42,317 bases of DNA from a candidate division KSB1 bacterium (GTDB lineage: Bacteria; Zhuqueibacterota; JdFR-76; DREG01), in NCBI GenBank assembly GCA_022566355.1, contig JADFJB010000022.1, positions 1-42,317 on the forward strand. Reading direction: 5' to 3'. The translations under genes were made by a program, and so were the position numbers. The notes beneath the pieces were generated by a model. The model made no database searches, was not told the DNA's origin, and saw nothing but the letters and a program-made list of their open reading frames with translations. Numbering within the stretch: the stretch's first letter is position 1; each line of letters opens with the position of its first letter. Of this stretch, positions 3,342-42,317 are shown piece by piece.

Positions 3342-3491
3342 AAGGAGTGAGCTGCCTCCCAAAGAGTTTGCTCGACCGGAAGTGGCCATTCTATTGATTG
3401 ATGCAGCTTGAATAAAGCAAAAATGCCATAAGACAGGAATTATTGCAAGAATTACTACCTCTTATGTATATTTTTAACTCTTAGTTGTTCC

Positions 3492-34368: not shown

Positions 34369-35312
34369 GAAATTCTGTCAAAATTAGTATTGTAATTCCT
34401 TCCTACAACGAACAAGAATCATTGGAAGAGTTATGTCGAACTACTGTTTCCGTCTTAGAGAAATTAAACTCACAATTTGAAATTATATTTGTGGATGATG
34501 GTTCAACCGATGATTCACTTGAAATCATGCGGAAAATTTACCAAGCCGATCGCCGGATAAAAATAATCCAATTCAGGAAGAATTATGGTAAATCTGCTGC
34601 ACTTTCTGCAGGGTTTGCCGCGTCGAATGGTGATATTGTCGTAACAATGGATGCAGATTTGCAGGATGATCCCACAGAAATTCCCAACCTGATTGCCAAA
34701 TTAAATGAAGGCTACGAACTTGTGTCAGGCTGGAAAAAAATTAGACATGATCCACTAACAAAAAGAATCACATCCAAAATATATAATATTTTAACTTCCT
34801 TCTTTGGCGGCATCCGTTTACATGATTTTAATTGTGGGTTGAAAGCTTATCGTTCTGAAGTAGTAAAATCCATTCGGGTTTATGGAGATCAGCATCGTTA
34901 TATCCCGGTTTTGGCACATAGTGAAGGATTCCGAGTAACCGAGCTTCCGGTAAAACATCATACCCGAAAATATGGCAAAACTAAATTTGGTTTGAGCCGT
35001 TTTACCCATGGCGCTTTCGATTTAATTACTGTCACATACCTCACTCGTTATAGAAAAAGGCCGCTTCATCTTTTTGGATTTTTAGGAATGATCAGTTTTG
35101 TATTAGGGACAATTATTTCAGGTGTGCTTACCTATCAAAGAATTTTTGAGGACAAATTCTTAAGTAACCGCCCTTTGTTGTTTTTAGGCATACTGCTCAT
35201 CATCGTCGGTGTGCAATTCTTTTCTATTGGCCTTTTAGGTGAAATGTTAAGCTCCGCTAGCAAAGATACAGATAGTTATGTGGTGAGGGAGAGGTTGGGG
35301 TTTAATGATTAA
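34365..35312 (+). CDS. GT2-family membrane glycosyltransferase (DPM1/GtrB/ArnC-like)
   Basis: The product is 315 aa. The GT-A domain (about 1-230) has SIVIPSYNEQESL, FVDDGSTDDS, RNYGKSAALSAGF and the metal-binding TMDADLQDDP. Two C-terminal membrane helices (about 230-255 and 265-290) are as in GtrB-type polyprenyl-phosphate glycosyltransferases, which load a sugar onto a lipid carrier at the inner membrane. It overlaps DUF4292 by ATGA and converges with the YceI-TPR gene, overlapping its end by four bases. Sugar and acceptor are unknown. Confidence 0.93.
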   Translation: MRNSVKISIVIPSYNEQESLEELCRTTVSVLEKLNSQFEIIFVDDGSTDDSLEIMRKIYQADRRIKIIQFRKNYGKSAALSAGFAASNGDIVVTMDADLQDDPTEIPNLIAKLNEGYELVSGWKKIRHDPLTKRITSKIYNILTSFFGGIRLHDFNCGLKAYRSEVVKSIRVYGDQHRYIPVLAHSEGFRVTELPVKHHTRKYGKTKFGLSRFTHGAFDLITVTYLTRYRKRPLHLFGFLGMISFVLGTIISGVLTYQRIFEDKFLSNRPLLFLGILLIIVGVQFFSIGLLGEMLSSASKDTDSYVVRERLGFND

Positions 35313-36469
35313 TCCATCGACTCTGCTTCAGACAAATAAAGATCGAGCTTAACACGAGCTGCATCTGCTTTATTTTTTTCTGTCTCTTCTAATAACTGAA
35401 CCGCTTTTTTCTGCCATTCGATTGCCAAGCTCAATTCTCCTTTTTTATAGTAAATTGTTGCAATCGTTGTAAGGGAGCTGGCATCTTTATTTTCATTTAA
35501 TTCACTGGCTCGTTTAGCGGCTTTCAAAGCAAAATCGAAATCTCTTTTCAATATTCCATCTTTGGTAGCAGTTGTGTTGGCAAGCCGCTTAAGTTGTCTG
35601 GGAGAATCCCATACTTCTTGCATGAATGTCTCGCCAAATTCATACGCTGCATCTGGTTCATTGAGATCTCGCAGCATAGTTAAGAATTTTAACTGTTTAG
35701 CATGGTGTCCTGGATTATCGGTAGGATCCATAGATTTGTCCGGCGAAATGGTACTAAACAGGAGGTAAATATCTAATTCGATTTCATCGCTAACTCTCTC
35801 CGTAAAACCTCTGCCGGGTTTCCAATCAAAATCTGCAAATTTAATAGTAGTTGTCCCTTCAAGTATGAGGACGTCATCATAGGTTCTGGAAAAAATTTGA
35901 TAATTCATGGGTATGAATTCCAACTTTGCCGGAATTGTTATTTCTTTGTTGGTTTTTTTAATCGATAATAGCCCGGTTAAATTGAGGTCATAAGTCGTAG
36001 ATTCATCCGATTTTTTTGTTTGCAATACATCGGTAATGCTTATTACTTCGAATGTGATTTCCGGATACAACTTAACATTAAAGAAATCTTTACCTTGCAG
36101 AAGATTATCTCCACCATCAATACCACTGCGAAAAGATGTGGTTGGTATTCTAAATGCGCCGCCAAGAATTGGGGTCAGTGGGTCTTCTTCCAAATCGAAA
36201 GGACTTACTATATAACCAACGGCACGACAGGTCGTAACGGCAACCCGTTGCAGGTATGCCCTGGACTTTAAGATTAGCTGAGTGTCTTCACCAGGCCAGA
36301 CGTAATATATCAATCCTTGATCCAGCTGTTCATCCGGTACAGCAAGACTCTGGCCTGCTTCGGAGCGTGCCGGCACTTGAGCCAATGCCTGGGTGGTTAC
36401 AGGGGTCAGCAACATAAATAAAATCCCTAATTTGGTAATTGATCTAATTGGAAAGAATCTTGGTTTCAT
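35309..36469 (-). CDS. Secreted YceI-domain protein with C-terminal TPR region
   Basis: The product is 386 aa. A signal peptide ends near residue 31 (TQALAQ). Residues about 35-240 follow the YceI lipocalin-like pattern: GGAFRIPTTSFRSGIDGGDNLL, DFFNVKLYPEITFEVISI, YDLNLTGLLSIKKTNKEITIP. YceI proteins bind polyisoprenoids in the periplasm. Residues about 270-380 are helical with TPR-like units (AYEFGETFMQEV, ASSLTTIATIYYKKGELSLAIEWQKKAVQLL), an uncommon addition to a YceI domain. It is the last gene of the minus-strand block and its 3' end overlaps the convergent glycosyltransferase gene. Confidence 0.87.
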   Translation of the reverse strand: MKPRFFPIRSITKLGILFMLLTPVTTQALAQVPARSEAGQSLAVPDEQLDQGLIYYVWPGEDTQLILKSRAYLQRVAVTTCRAVGYIVSPFDLEEDPLTPILGGAFRIPTTSFRSGIDGGDNLLQGKDFFNVKLYPEITFEVISITDVLQTKKSDESTTYDLNLTGLLSIKKTNKEITIPAKLEFIPMNYQIFSRTYDDVLILEGTTTIKFADFDWKPGRGFTERVSDEIELDIYLLFSTISPDKSMDPTDNPGHHAKQLKFLTMLRDLNEPDAAYEFGETFMQEVWDSPRQLKRLANTTATKDGILKRDFDFALKAAKRASELNENKDASSLTTIATIYYKKGELSLAIEWQKKAVQLLEETEKNKADAARVKLDLYLSEAESMD

Positions 36470-36539
36470 TTCTTTTAACCTGTATTAAATTATGGATTTA
36501 CCAATTTTTAACCTAACCTACTATGTTAGCAGAAGTTAT

Positions 36540-36581
36540 CCCTTCGTCAAGCTCAGGACGCAGCCTGAACGAATTGAAGGG
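36540..36581. repeat. CCCTTCG...CAAGCTCAGG-type palindromic element
   Basis: CCCTTC (36540-36545) pairs with GAAGGG (36576-36581), and an inner TCAGG pairs with CCTGA around a 6-base loop, giving a nested hairpin. The sequence, including the CAAGCTCAGGACGCAGCCTGAACG core, strongly resembles a short palindrome widely dispersed between genes in many bacterial genomes. It lies between two minus-strand genes. Only one copy is in the window, so its repetitive nature is inferred. Confidence 0.65.
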
Positions 36582-36596
36582 TTCTGGGTAGTACTA

Positions 36597-37814
36597 TCAC
36601 TTTCCTAATTCTAGCGCTTTGATTTTTGTGCGATTACGTATATACATTTTACTGCCCACAAGTGTTGGTGGCGTCCATGCCGTGCGCTCGATGATATGAG
36701 CTTTTGAATGGATCGTCAAGCCTTCCGGTGTGGCTGTTGCAATTGCCAGGTTGCCATCTTCATCTAGGATGATCAGTTTTTCATCAGCGTAGGATAAATG
36801 GGCGCGGGAAAATCCTCTTTTCCGCCACATGATTTTGCCGGTTTTAATATCCAAACACATGAGAAAAGCCGGTCCAAATCCACCGCTGGAGCCATAAATA
36901 TAATCTCCGATTCTAGCATAAGTGCCGTACATGATACGCATTTTACGATTATACCACAATTCTTTGGCTTCATATTTACCATCTTTTTTAGTAATTTCAA
37001 GAACCCTGCTGCCGTCTGCATATGCCTGGGATCCAAACAAAAGATTATCTTTCCCCAAGTGTTGAGTCGTGAACAGAGTGCCGGCAGTTTGTGGGAAAGC
37101 ATGATGCCATTTAAGTTCCCCGGTGTTGGGATCGAGACCGGCACGGTCAGCTCCCATAGCGACAAACAGTTGGTCCTCGCCTGCAATATTGACAAGAATC
37201 GACGACGAATAACCATTGCGAAAACTCTGGCTTTTCCAGATAACTTCGCCACTCTTTTGGTCAAAAGCAACGACTGCCTGATCTTTACCACCGACATTTA
37301 CGATAATCATATTCTTATAAGCTATTGAACTTGGACCATAACCACGTCCCATGTGACTTGCTTGCATTTCTTCCATCAAATCTTTCGACCAGATGATTTC
37401 ACCGGTTTTTTTATTCAAACAATTTAATATTACAGTCAAGCTTATAGTATATAGTTTATCGCCAACCAGTAGAGGTGATGATACTGGTCCATGGCCGAAA
37501 TCCAGGATCATTTTGGGTTTCATAGGGGCTTCATAGGTAGTCTCCCAAATGATTTCGCCAGTTGATGCATTCAAAGAAACCACTGCATCCAGCTCACCTT
37601 TCCTTTTGGTTGTATAAAGAATGCCATCCTCATAGAGAATGGTGCTAAACCCATCCCCAAACTCATGGCTCCATAATTCAGTGGGACCATTTTCAGGCCA
37701 GGTAGAAGCGAGGGGGTTGGCTTCCACTGTGAAATCTCTATTGGGCCCACCCCATTGTGTCCATTGGGAATAACCAGGTTGAGAAATTAAGAAAATTATA
37801 ATAAGAAAAAACAC
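36597..37814 (-). CDS. Secreted PQQ-like beta-propeller repeat protein
   Basis: About 405 aa from GTG 37814. After a hydrophobic leader (FLIIIFLISQPGYSQ) the protein carries repeated PQQ-type blades, visible as LNASTGEIIWETTYE, LNKKTGEIIWSKD, FDQKSGEVIWKSQ, LDPNTGELKWHHAF and LDIKTGKIMWRKRGF. The WxQWGGPNRDFTVE start is typical of PQQ-binding-like proteins that may be periplasmic dehydrogenase relatives or scaffolds. It does not show the full quinoprotein dehydrogenase active site. GTG 37814 leaves no basic residues before the hydrophobic core. The frame is open to 37898 without a standard start, so the true initiator may be a non-canonical codon upstream. Confidence 0.88.
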   Translation of the reverse strand: MFFLIIIFLISQPGYSQWTQWGGPNRDFTVEANPLASTWPENGPTELWSHEFGDGFSTILYEDGILYTTKRKGELDAVVSLNASTGEIIWETTYEAPMKPKMILDFGHGPVSSPLLVGDKLYTISLTVILNCLNKKTGEIIWSKDLMEEMQASHMGRGYGPSSIAYKNMIIVNVGGKDQAVVAFDQKSGEVIWKSQSFRNGYSSSILVNIAGEDQLFVAMGADRAGLDPNTGELKWHHAFPQTAGTLFTTQHLGKDNLLFGSQAYADGSRVLEITKKDGKYEAKELWYNRKMRIMYGTYARIGDYIYGSSGGFGPAFLMCLDIKTGKIMWRKRGFSRAHLSYADEKLIILDEDGNLAIATATPEGLTIHSKAHIIERTAWTPPTLVGSKMYIRNRTKIKALELGK

Positions 37815-37917
37815 CCCTGAGATAAAGTGAGAAAAAGTATACTTTTGAATATTCCTAATTGTCGTAAGTTTCCTTCCTTTCGTGTAAATATTTCCGGATC
37901 AGAAATCCTTCAAAAAA

Positions 37918-37996
37918 TTAGGTTCTCCAGAGAACCAAGTGAATTAATCTGTAAATTCAAGGTTGCAATTGCAACCTAATTCTCTGAAGAACCTAA
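37918..37996. repeat. 79-bp nested palindromic element
   Basis: Outer arms at 37918-37934 and 37980-37996 match as inverted repeats at 16 of 17 positions. The left arm starts a second hairpin, GGTTCTC-CA-GAGAACC (37921-37936). The centre contains a perfect 18-bp palindrome, AGGTTGCAATTGCAACCT (37960-37977). The layout suggests a MITE-like or structured repeat element. It lies in the spacer between the PQQ-like gene and the decayed M1/beta-barrel gene. Confidence 0.65.
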
Positions 37997-38002
37997 AATG
38001 AT

Positions 38003-38027
38003 AAAAAACGTGGGTTTGAACTCACGT
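38003..38027 (-). terminator. Rho-independent terminator for the M1/beta-barrel (pseudo)gene
   Basis: On the minus strand ACGTGAGTT and AACCCACGT pair (one G-T) around CA, followed by six T. It begins 27 bases past the end of the minus-strand frame at 38055. It is on the correct side for leftward transcription. Confidence 0.8.
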
Positions 38028-38054
38028 CAAAAAAATGGTTGATATATTATGTCA

Positions 38055-39157
38055 TTAAAATACCTGGCTAATACCAAGAACCCAGCGAAATCTCACATTA
38101 TCTTTTTCAATTCCGTTATTATCCACTTCCGGAACACTCAGCCAGAATGGAAAGTCGGCTCGGATGGTAAAGTTTTGGCCCCATATTCTATGTCGTGTAA
38201 GCAAGCCGAGGCCTGCATCTGACAAAGTCTGGGTATCATCTTCTGTTTTCCAAATTTTGCCGGTATCATAGAATCCAACCAAAGTGGAATTTCCCAATAA
38301 TTTCTTGATGAGAGGAATGGGCAGTCGAAATCTTTTTCGAAGTTCCATATTGAAGGCCATAAGTTTTTCACCGGCAAGAGGCATAGTCACATAGCCGCGC
38401 AGATTACCCCCGCCTGGTGCATGCAAATGAGCTTCTGGGAAAAATGATCCACGGCTTTTGAGATACGAGGATTGATATCGCGTTCTTGGATTTGCACCTT
38501 CAGCCCGGTATAAATCTTGTAAAGGTGGCCGATCACTGAAGGATGTTCCAGCATAACCTCGCAGATGCACTCCCACAAAATTCCACAGTTTGCCAGCCTT
38601 CATGATCATAAACCACGACTTTTGGATACCATTGCGCGAAGTCGTACTGCGTACCGCGGTAACCAGTCCGGCTCGATATTTTGCGGATTTTAGATTCAAA
38701 TTTTAGCCGAATTGTGACTTCACCACCAGGCGGTAGAGGGCTTGGCAGTGCGGCTTCCAGAATGGTATCCTCTACCTGGTATGCTGTCACAACCTGGGTG
38801 GCAGCTCCTCCAGGTGAACCGATCCTGAAAGAGGTGATCTCGATCCAGCCGCGATCTTCCTCCGGTACATCTCGCAGTTGGTAGTATTTTTTTGCCTCCT
38901 GAGCCATTGTGGAGTTTTCATCCTTGTATGCATTTGGATATAAATGCAAGTAGAATTTGTTCAGGGTATTGGGTGAGAGTTGTTGCGATAAAGGATGGTC
39001 TCATTGCCTGTCAGCATATGCGTTTCAGGTTCGAGGGAAACATCCATAGTCTAATGTACAAATTGCTGCCAATAATCTTCCTCGGGATGCATACTGTAAG
39101 CTGTTCCGCAAACGAGAAAGGCTGACAAAATATAAATCAGTAGACATTTTTTTTCAT
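38055..39157 (-). pseudogene. Decayed M1-family metallopeptidase with outer-membrane beta-barrel C-terminus
   Basis: The 5' end is a clear gene start: GGAGGT five bases before ATG 39157, then a signal peptide. The start codon is out of frame because an 8-A run (39147-39154) is one base short. An in-frame TAG (39051-39053) replaces the expected Tyr in FVH-x-TMDVSLEPETHMLTGNETI. Another frameshift lies near 38970-38980, between YRNNS and NTLNKFYLHLYPNAYK. The frame then shows M1 N-terminal features (YDFAQWYPKVVVYDHEGWQT) up to about 38587. There it is joined out of frame to a barrel end (FVGVHLRGYAGTSFSDRP to GISQVF, terminal Phe). The whole M1 catalytic domain (GxMEN, HExxH) is absent, so an internal deletion is inferred. 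Confidence 0.85.
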
Positions 39158-39298
39158 GCTTACCTCCAGTTAATAAATAAGACGGTTAGAAAAGGTTTTG
39201 GGTTTCTGTCACAAAATGGTTTAGAGTGAACTCTGTTTGAACCTTATTTTGCATCACAGGTTAATTAAGATAACTACAGAAGCAAAAAGGAATGGTTT

Positions 39299-39358
39299 AT
39301 GAAAATGGGGGATATTTTGGTCTGGTTAATATTTTTTACAATCATTAATATCTATTAA
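39299..39358 (+). CDS. Possible 19-residue hydrophobic micropeptide
   Basis: ATG 39299 is preceded by AAAAAGG with 8 bases spacing and opens a 19-codon frame. The product, beginning MKMGDILVWLIFF, would be a single short membrane segment. It lies in the 290-bp spacer upstream of the decayed M1/beta-barrel gene, on the opposite strand. There is no homology evidence. It could be a true small membrane protein, a gene remnant or chance. Confidence 0.25.
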   Translation: MKMGDILVWLIFFTIINIY

Positions 39359-39447
39359 AGAATTAGCTCAAAATGGAGCACAGACTCTTCCAGCTGAACA
39401 AGTTAGCTTTGCTTTAAATCACTCAAAACTTGCCCTAATACATTTAT

Positions 39448-40536
39448 TTATTGTTTCAGTACAGCTAATTTAGCGATCTTTCCTCTAATTCCAGCAGCCC
39501 ACCCTGTCGTACCACTCGGAGAAAATTCCACAGAATTAAAACTGGTCGTATCCATATGAGTCCAAACCATGCCATTATTCACAGAAAAATCTGTTCCGGA
39601 TGTTCCCAGGGTAATTAAAGAAAGGGGTGTTGAGCCAGGCAGGTAAGCTACTGCAGATTTGAATCCGGTTGGAGGAGAGTCTTCATTCAGTTGCCAGGTA
39701 ACACCGCCATCTTTCGTAATCGCAAAGTTTTTATTCGTCTGATCCGGTTTCAGGTAGTCGCCGCCAACAGCCACGCCATTGTTTTCATCCCGGAAAGCCA
39801 GGCCAAAAATACCCGTGGAGGTTTCACCGCTAATGATGGGCGTATCCGAAATGGTCCAGCTTTTTCCATTGTCGATTGATCTTAGTACCCTGGCAGTAGA
39901 ACCACCTGTACAGATCCAGGCATGATTTGTTCCAAACACAGTTATACCCGTGCCACTGGCGGCAAAGCCATATTCTCCCGCTTGGGCGGGAGGAATATTT
40001 TCAATTGCTACCCGGCGCCAGTTTTCGCCACCGTCTGATGTTCTGATGATGAAACAATGTCCATCGACCGGGTCGCCATAGGCAAGGCCATTATCTATAT
40101 CCCAAAAAGCAATACCATCCAGAAAACCTTGCGGATGTGGATTGGTGAATTGCAGGGTCCAATTCCTGCCACCATCCGTTGTTTTGTATATCCTCGATTT
40201 TTCCCCGTCGCCGACACTCATGGTGTATGCGGTATTCTCATCAAATGCTTCGATATCTCTTAATTCCAGGTCTGTAGCGCCGGATATGGAATCAACACTC
40301 CAGGTCGCTCCACCATCGATGGTTTTGATAAATGTTCCTTCGGATCCGCTTGCCCAAACGATTTGGTCACTTACGACGCTTAAGCCACGGAATGAAGCCG
40401 GAGTATCAATGTCTTGAATAGTCCATTTTGCTGTTTCTAAGTTTATAGTTTCCATTTTTTTTGATTCGCAACCAGGGAAGGTACAAACGATTAATAACCC
40501 TAGAAATAAACCATAATTGTGCTTACATAATCGCAT
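39448..40536 (-). CDS. Ycf48/BNR-repeat beta-propeller lipoprotein
   Basis: The product is 362 aa. The signal sequence ends in a lipobox (FPGC, near residue 24). The rest consists of repeated propeller blades with Asp-box/BNR motifs: KTIDGGATWSVD, KTTDGGRNWTLQ, RTSDGGENWRRV, RSIDNGKSWTI and TKDGGVTWQLN. These match the photosystem II assembly factor Ycf48-like/BNR superfamily, which in non-phototrophs is of unknown role and often annotated loosely as oxidoreductase. The start has AGGAG about 8 bases upstream. Sampled lines within it are about 50-55% G+C, above most of the window. It is followed at 32 bases by the gene-proximal spacer of the next minus-strand gene. Confidence 0.9.
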   Translation of the reverse strand: MRLCKHNYGLFLGLLIVCTFPGCESKKMETINLETAKWTIQDIDTPASFRGLSVVSDQIVWASGSEGTFIKTIDGGATWSVDSISGATDLELRDIEAFDENTAYTMSVGDGEKSRIYKTTDGGRNWTLQFTNPHPQGFLDGIAFWDIDNGLAYGDPVDGHCFIIRTSDGGENWRRVAIENIPPAQAGEYGFAASGTGITVFGTNHAWICTGGSTARVLRSIDNGKSWTISDTPIISGETSTGIFGLAFRDENNGVAVGGDYLKPDQTNKNFAITKDGGVTWQLNEDSPPTGFKSAVAYLPGSTPLSLITLGTSGTDFSVNNGMVWTHMDTTSFNSVEFSPSGTTGWAAGIRGKIAKLAVLKQ

Positions 40537-40568
40537 CGGATTAACTCCTATTAAAATTTTATAAGAAA

Positions 40569-41021
40569 TTATTTTTTTAGGAATGTCATAGAATTGCCGC
40601 TTGGGAAATAGATTGATAATTGGTTTTGTTCGATTTTAATTAAACATTTTTCTTGAGAAGCCTCAGCTGCAGAACGAATTTCCATCCGAAGCGGACTTTG
40701 AGCTAAATCCCCAATGGCGTTGCCGGCGGATAAATTATAGTGATGTTTGAATTCCAAGCTGTCGCCAATCAGCAAATAGGTGCCACCTTCGGCAGAACCT
40801 CGTTGTGGTTTATCTTCATCATCCATTACGAAAAAAAGAACGGTCCAATCCTTCTCTGTAAAGAAGATATGGCCCTTAACCACATGTTGACCGCCATCTT
40901 TTAGAGTATACATTTTAGTCGACCATGCACCTTCGAGGCTATTTTTAATACTATTTGTTTGACAAGAAATTATCGGAATTAAAAAAGTTAGGATGAGAAA
41001 TTGAACCCTAAAGAACTTCAT
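40569..41021 (-). CDS. Small lipoprotein, lipocalin-like by pattern
   Basis: About 150 aa from ATG 41021. This start gives a clean signal peptide (KFFRVQFLILTFLIPIISC) with lipobox IISC and avoids overlap with the upstream gene. An in-frame ATG at 41054 exists but would put 11 polar residues before the signal and overlap the kynureninase frame. The mature part begins LEGAWSTKMYTLKDGG and continues with alternating strands (HVVKGHIFFTEKDWTVLFF, GGTYLLIGDSLEFKHHY), consistent with a small beta-barrel such as a lipocalin-like domain. The stop of the kynureninase-like gene is 10 bases upstream, so the two are co-transcribed. Function unknown. Confidence 0.82.
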   Translation of the reverse strand: MKFFRVQFLILTFLIPIISCQTNSIKNSLEGAWSTKMYTLKDGGQHVVKGHIFFTEKDWTVLFFVMDDEDKPQRGSAEGGTYLLIGDSLEFKHHYNLSAGNAIGDLAQSPLRMEIRSAAEASQEKCLIKIEQNQLSIYFPSGNSMTFLKK

Positions 41022-41031
41022 AATTATGTCT

Positions 41032-42219
41032 TTAAAAATTTCGAATGATTTCACCCAGAATCTCTATGGCAGAACCCAATTGATCGTCTGATAAATAGGG
41101 TGCAGGACCCAACCGCAATGTCTCATCTCGATAGTCCGTTAATACACCATGTTCACTTAATCGCTGGTTCATCTTTTCGGCATAAGGGGAATCCAGGGCA
41201 AGGAATCCGCCAATATTTTCCAAAGGTATTGAATGATCCCTGCTTATAATTTTAGGATCGGCATCGAGGTTATCGAATAATTGTTGTAGCAGGCCAACCT
41301 GGTGTTGACTGACTTTGCGAAGAAATTCAGGAGTTAGTTGATGCTTGTCAAAAAAGGCAAATACCTCTGCTGCCCGGTAATGGCTGGTTGGGTCGTATGT
41401 CGCCCCGGCAAACCTGGCGGGTCCTTTACCATAAGATAATCTGTTGGTTTTATCAGTCAGCGCATCAAATTCACTGAACCATCCTGTGATGACCGGCCTC
41501 ATTTGGCAATCCTTAGGAAATCGAAGAAAGCAATTGCCCTCACCCAACTGACAATATTTATAGCCGCCGCCCACCATAAAAGCTTGTTGTAGATTTTCCT
41601 TTTTAATTGAGAACGGCACGACGTTAAGAGTATGATAAACGTCGATTAATAATTCTGCACCTACTTTTGTACAGGCATCTAAAACATGAGAAAGTCCCGG
41701 GACAATGTGGGCATTTTTAAAATAAACCGAGGATACCAAAACCGCAGCCGTGTGATCGTCTACAGCATCAGCCAGTCGATTCGAAACTGAGGATGCAGGA
41801 TAAGCTGCCACTTTTACGATTTTCACTTCTTCCTCAGCCAATCGGTCTAATTGCCGCCGGATCGTATGAAATTCGCCATCTGTGGTCACTATTTTTGGTC
41901 GTTGTTTTAAAGGCAAGGCGGAAAGAAAGCGAATCACCAATTCATGCGTATTTCCCGCCAGGGCAATGATACCATTTTCATCATCGAGGAGGCGGGCAAA
42001 ACCGCTACCTACTAATTCGGCTTTGGCAAAGGCTCTTTGCCATTTTTCATCGACGAATTCTGATGCATCCAGCCAGGCTTGTTTTTGTCCTTCTAAACCG
42101 CAATCCGGCCACGCTTGATGTGAATGGCCGGTTAAAAGCAATCGCTCATCAACACGAAAGCGACTGTAATGTTTTACCAGTTTGTTAGGGCTTTGGAATA
42201 AATCTACTGGAGTTAACAT
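41032..42219 (-). CDS. kynU: Kynureninase-like PLP hydrolase/aminotransferase (class V fold)
   Basis: The product is 395 aa. PLP class V-fold enzyme, with the Schiff-base Lys in VGGGYKYCQLGEG (canonical kynureninase GxGYKYxxGGPG), pyridine-binding Asp in LLIDVYHTLNVVPF, and the C-terminal LRLGPAPYLSDDQL region that in kynureninase carries the substrate-binding Arg. Kynureninase cleaves L-kynurenine to anthranilate and alanine. The N-terminus LLLTGHSHQAWPDC replaces the common FLTNHSLG-type segment, so substrate differences are possible. No other tryptophan-degradation gene is in the window. The ribosome-binding site before ATG 42219 is weak. Family confidence is high, exact activity moderate. 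Confidence 0.82.
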   Translation of the reverse strand: MLTPVDLFQSPNKLVKHYSRFRVDERLLLTGHSHQAWPDCGLEGQKQAWLDASEFVDEKWQRAFAKAELVGSGFARLLDDENGIIALAGNTHELVIRFLSALPLKQRPKIVTTDGEFHTIRRQLDRLAEEEVKIVKVAAYPASSVSNRLADAVDDHTAAVLVSSVYFKNAHIVPGLSHVLDACTKVGAELLIDVYHTLNVVPFSIKKENLQQAFMVGGGYKYCQLGEGNCFLRFPKDCQMRPVITGWFSEFDALTDKTNRLSYGKGPARFAGATYDPTSHYRAAEVFAFFDKHQLTPEFLRKVSQHQVGLLQQLFDNLDADPKIISRDHSIPLENIGGFLALDSPYAEKMNQRLSEHGVLTDYRDETLRLGPAPYLSDDQLGSAIEILGEIIRNF

Positions 42220-42317
42220 ATTTTAATCTATTTGATAATGAACAACATTCTGGTTCAAATATCAAAGTTCTGTCCGAATTTCCCATAAATCCGGGAATAC
42301 CGGTTTGAACAGGGTTT

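Follow-up and report, generated by a model that had tools for sequence, protein, structure and literature searches.

The region 38055-39157, on the minus strand of a 42,317-nucleotide stretch of DNA (the window) from a candidate division KSB1 bacterium, contains recognisable pieces of an M1 peptidase and of an outer-membrane barrel that do not share one reading frame. An earlier note, made by reading the sequence, had described it as a gene destroyed by four separate lesions. The locus therefore raises the question of whether it is the relic of a gene, a product of faulty assembly or a sequence that is still put to use, and of what the intact gene would have encoded. As developed below, the region is very likely a pseudogene, and probably a recent one, of a gene for a secreted outer-membrane protein in which a signal peptide was followed by a zinc metallopeptidase of M1 type and, at the C-terminus, by a 16-strand barrel of Omp85 type. 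Its features are as follows.

38055..39157, minus strand: pseudogene of an M1 peptidase-Omp85 barrel fusion, with about 350 of about 1000 codons left
39162..39167, minus strand: ribosome-binding site GGAGGT, 4 bases ahead of the ATG, from the sequence
39147..39154, minus strand: run of eight A (A8) right after the ATG (39157-39155), from the sequence and its reading frames
38979..39146, minus strand: signal-peptide remnant and beginning of the M1 N-terminal domain, aligned to homologue residues ~7-58
39051..39053, minus strand: in-frame TAG, at a column where all six intact homologues have Tyr
38970..38980, minus strand: frameshift, at 38978 in 6 of 6 alignments
38578..38970, minus strand: further remnant of that M1 N-terminal domain, aligned to homologue residues ~60-193
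38564..38592, minus strand: deletion junction, out of frame, 625-634 homologue residues lost in the alignments
38055..38573, minus strand: remnant of an Omp85-type barrel through the stop codon, approximately six final strands, LRGY loop motif included
38003..38028, minus strand: hairpin and U run, probable terminator, from folding energy

Lesions of the broken gene

The start described in the earlier note is present, with its ribosome-binding site at 39167-39162. The frame opened by the ATG amounts to six codons and ends at a TGA (39139-39137), and the signal-peptide-like stretch resumes after the A8 run in a frame other than that of the ATG. This first lesion was called by reading, from the difference between the ATG frame and the homologous frame. 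The other lesions were mapped with a purpose-written DNA-versus-protein aligner in which frame changes and long gaps were permitted, with six intact homologues picked from the full-length list, rather than the whole list, as references. The TAG replacing Tyr, the frameshift, previously placed near 38975, and a long loss accompanied by one extra base were each recovered in all six alignments. With the same aligner, two intact control sequences (L049 and L046, about 1.25 kb each) were aligned to L045 with zero breaks and zero stops. Two further frameshifts, at 39206 and 39187, appeared in the alignment to L050 only; they lie upstream of the ATG and were taken as alignment run-on.

The out-of-frame join that had been read near 38587 is confirmed within a narrow interval: the jump was placed at 38577/38576 in four of the six alignments and at 38592 in one, and in the alignment to L051 the deletion was split into gaps of 102 and 532 residues, at 38586 and 38564. 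The nearest relative (G001) is a fragment, with a contig end falling where the remainder of the gene should lie, so that the exact breakpoints are not fixed by any close intact orthologue. Measured against intact relatives of about 1000 amino acids, the loss corresponds to about 1.9 kb and comprises the whole Pfam Peptidase_M1 stretch with the zinc-site region, as well as about ten of the sixteen barrel strands. Relative to P0001 (1014 aa), the best full-length relative, the pseudogene retains residues to approximately 193 and from approximately 827. The PF01433 stretch of that protein (358-527) has no counterpart in the alignment, and the HExxH...E zinc site of M1 enzymes is missing with the deleted region. 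What is left is, as proposed in the earlier note, an M1 N-terminal domain joined to the last strands of a barrel, with the catalytic part gone. A direct repeat was considered as the cause of the deletion and rejected, as the sole listed repeat touching the junction (38568-38588) has its other copy at 39513-39533, outside the gene.

The claim of an intact terminator is plausible rather than proven. The hairpin at 38028-38003 is followed by a U run and has a folding energy of -6.7 kcal/mol (z -2.41), with 6 of 200 shuffled sequences folding equally well, but it is absent from the listing of a terminator pattern scan. Known RNAs were not detected in 35000-42317 at gathering score. Inverted repeats are found at 37908-37996, between the pseudogene and a PQQ-repeat gene, and their core GGTTCTCNNGAGAACC has no other occurrence in the genome. 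The palindrome at 37921-37936 was likewise considered as a repeated operator and rejected, since it occurs a single time in the genome.

Decay, assembly error or continued use

Searches with the two halves of the remnant were performed in 59 genomes of the phylum, the own genome included in the counts. The N-terminal piece (38958-38590) has matches in 49 of them (best non-self match 60% identity, E 1.4e-47) and the C-terminal piece (38591-38055) in 27 (best match 71%, in a genome of the same family, E 3.4e-50). In the closer relatives, the two pieces match opposite ends of one open frame of about 1000 amino acids. Matches of the C-terminal piece with at least 27 bits belong to frames of at least 910 aa, to frames cut by contig ends, or to one frameshifted copy. 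Among the short frames in this set, three (L059, L063, L064) are cut by contig ends and one (L166, in genome G056) belongs to the frameshifted copy. Seven weak matches (20-24 bits) come from frames about 400-550 aa long in which HExxH is absent, and are read as other Omp85 barrels; an eighth weak match is to a 975-aa frame with HExxH, in G019. Thus, no short working M1-barrel gene resembling the remnant was encountered among the short-frame matches opened.

In the own genome (98.5% complete), searches with either piece and with the full-length relative P0001 gave no second M1-barrel copy. Nor did P0001 recover the missing middle on another contig, its other matches being 22-35% identical and located in different genes. 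At least five M1-like genes (L158-L162, 549-782 aa) are present in this genome, with HExxH and without LRGY. A separate 417-aa gene (L163, 2335-3585 of G000:C17) carries the LRGY motif without HExxH, and matches the barrel remnant weakly (E 0.18). Five neighbour genes of the pseudogene were compared with the frames of at least 100 aa in 20 stretches carrying homologues, some of these stretches being short, and gave zero matches (E 1e-5). Spread by plasmids was considered and dismissed, with zero matches in 72,556 plasmid records.

All of the lesions are read from a single draft assembly (213 contigs), and a 2024 study argues that assembly errors account for many reported pseudogenes of bacteria (PMC11017572). 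The apparent damage could accordingly be an artefact: the assembly may have collapsed or mis-joined a whole gene, with low coverage adding the small errors. Long frames remain open in the remnants, which would fit assembly-only damage as well as decay. This explanation is improbable, given four lesions of differing kinds within about 0.6 kb and a missing 1.9 kb that was found on no other contig of a nearly complete assembly. Moreover, of ten window genes scanned, eight match a curated model above cut-off across nearly its whole length (the remaining two are a PhoH protein below cut-off and a protein without match at the limit used), so that no general error problem is visible. Real decay, for which the earlier note had argued from the number of lesions, is therefore the best reading: the lesions are separate, three of the four are the same against all six homologues, genes of full length stand elsewhere in the window, and no second copy was found in the genome.

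Continued use of the remnant, by recoding (slippage at the A8 run, read-through of the TAG) or as a short barrel protein made from a TTG start (214-aa frame, 38055-38699), has next to nothing to recommend it: an A8 run behind the ATG is a possible slippery run and the 214-aa frame is open, but a product of recoding at three places, across a join of unlike parts, would still lack the zinc site and have no more than about six barrel strands, and the matches of the C-terminal piece that were opened include no relative with so short a working gene.

Under decay, translation from the surviving start would end after six codons. The remnant and the G001 fragment are paired in the tree with support of 100/98, with end branches of 0.14 and 0.20. 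Over 109 codons, the two differ with pN 0.20 and pS 0.74, and synonymous sites are near saturation, so that most of the conservation may predate the decay. As the remnant evolves no faster than its nearest relative, the decay is probably young, in a comparison which does not permit precise dating. Other M1 enzymes, or a change of niche, may have rendered the gene dispensable and its loss tolerable; the five M1-like HExxH genes kept in this genome are a possible reason. The pseudogene itself would then represent ordinary gene decay, with one lineage having lost an outer-membrane-held peptidase of a kind that several relatives keep. Greater weight attaches to the intact M1-Omp85 family, which looks little studied, and to a clade within it that lacks the zinc site.

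The intact M1-Omp85 family

The parent proposed in the earlier note, an M1 peptidase with a beta-barrel, is borne out by the intact relatives. All four relatives scanned match PF01433 above cut-off, and outside one clade the aligned rows covering the site keep HExxH, with a GMEY motif replacing GxMEN. An AlphaFold model of an intact Neomarinimicrobiota relative (L076, 982 aa, 24 alignment rows) has a mean pLDDT of 85.2, a pTM of 0.86 and sixteen C-terminal strands. Its M1 part superimposes on tricorn factor F3 (1z1w) with Z 31.1 and rmsd 2.7 over 450 aligned residues. The relatives thus resemble M1 metallopeptidases (aminopeptidase N, tricorn factor F3, LTA4 hydrolase; PF01433) in their PF01433 match and, for the one modelled, in fold. 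They differ in the addition of a C-terminal outer-membrane barrel, whereas the pseudogene differs in lacking the whole catalytic stretch. Fold and motif suggest that the parent may have acted as an aminopeptidase held at the outer membrane, on peptides of the periplasm or of the surface.

The barrel can be specified further than in the earlier note: on the evidence of the predicted structure, it is a 16-strand barrel of Omp85 (BamA/TamA/Sam50) type. Modelled alone, the L076 barrel has a pLDDT of 82.6, and the 50 rows listed by a Foldseek search with it are chains of BamA, TamA or the SAM complex, with moderate TM-scores of 0.47-0.56 by query length; the rows listed by a second structure search are of these same kinds. 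Superposition gave Z 20.5 and rmsd 3.6 over 283 aligned residues with the SAM-complex chain 9nk7_B, and Z 20.5 and rmsd 4.3 over 294 with BamA (8bnz_A). A profile of the barrels of the relatives matched BamA 4k3b with E 2.9e-5 over profile positions 249-324, in the LRGY region; 22 of the 24 rows of one alignment (A2) were used in one step. In the model, the LRGY motif lies in the long loop after strand 11, as in loop 6 of BamA, and the last piece of the pseudogene corresponds approximately to strands 11-16.

In comparisons with curated family models, the barrel of the pseudogene scores 16.8 bits with PF01103 (cut-off 24) and 32.6 with NF047779 (cut-off 200), and among 22 barrels of relatives at E of at most 0.01, PF01103 matches 1, NF047779 1 and the BamA model 5. 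The parent shares with the Omp85 superfamily (BamA, TamA, Sam50) the sixteen modelled strands and the LRGY motif in the long loop after strand 11. It differs in having the M1 enzyme where a POTRA element would stand: the one modelled relative shows nothing evidently POTRA-like in the interval from its M1 part to its barrel. An enzyme located N-terminal to an Omp85 barrel is also the arrangement of PlpD (patatin, type Vd) and of the 'Metallo' subfamily (PF00149), from which the parent differs by its enzyme family, M1. These patatin and PF00149 fusions are described in a 2014 survey of Omp85 proteins, the main text of which contains zero words beginning with 'peptidase' (PMC4104836). Judged by title and the start of the abstract, no description of an M1 peptidase-Omp85 fusion was present among the matches listed from one open library.

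The same architecture had been called unusual in the earlier note, a view that does not hold. According to the search listing, 18 of the 59 genomes of the phylum match the barrel end in a frame of 850 aa or more, so that the fusion is not rare. In the trees, relatives of the window's genome group with KSB1 records, in keeping with a phylum of KSB1 type. Among the matches listed, it was also found in records named Neomarinimicrobiota, Gemmatimonadota, Krumholzibacteriota, Ignavibacteriales and Bacteroidetes. Within the best 80 of 590 confirmed loci of the named-genome scan, 17 carry [LVIF]RG[YF] after residue 550 of their best frame, and these are from records named Gemmatimonadota, Neomarinimicrobiota, Krumholzibacteriota, KSB1, Bacteroidetes and others; many of the Bacteroidetes rows in the same set are M1 alone, of about 605-660 aa. 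A 1053-aa M1-barrel gene is present both in the record of Bacterium BMS3Bbin03 (L094) and in G005:C49.

A clade without the zinc site

In nine M1-barrel genes (L054, 6704-9724; L081, 5995-9018; L164-L167; L172-L174), the zinc site has no HExxH; eight of these genes are in the G genomes and one, L081, is in a named KSB1 record. Full-length frames of 1005 aa or more are retained in eight of the nine. The ninth (L166, 871-3838 of G056:C287) is split by one frameshift, at about nt 3425, which corresponds to about residue 886 of its relative in G033. It is otherwise 88-92% identical to that relative, and the frameshift could reflect decay or an assembly error.

In a tree built without the motif columns and without the fragments L059 and L085, the nine zinc-less genes form one clade (100/100), and the loss of the zinc motif maps as one change on the tree as well as in 100% of 200 bootstrap trees. 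Ratios of dN/dS were sought for five pairs; in two of these, one of them zinc-less, dS is saturated and the ratio cannot be used. The pair L164/L166 yielded 0.142 over the 856 codons ahead of the break, compared to 0.117 for the HExxH paralogues of the same two genomes, and L054/L167 yielded 0.144. With values near 0.14 in the two measurable pairs, the clade appears to be under purifying selection. One clade, one change and purifying selection are most simply explained if the motif was lost once and the protein was kept.

A HExxH paralogue is among the rows in seven of the eight G genomes with a zinc-less gene, i.e. in all but G035; in G015 and G034 this paralogue sits in a more distant branch. 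There is no neighbour gene common to all eight zinc-less stretches, and some close pairs share genes. It is tempting to speculate that M1-Omp85 proteins represent a distinct enzyme-fused branch of Omp85, in one old clade of which catalysis was given up with both domains kept, and that the M1 fold there binds peptides without cutting them, as a module carried by an outer-membrane barrel, in most cases with a predicted-active paralogue in the same genome. We regard this proposal as evenly poised between right and wrong, and the question it raises is what an M1 fold on an outer-membrane barrel does if it does not cut. A WOR-3 relative of 892 aa (L145, 5977-8652), outside the tree, is also without HExxH.
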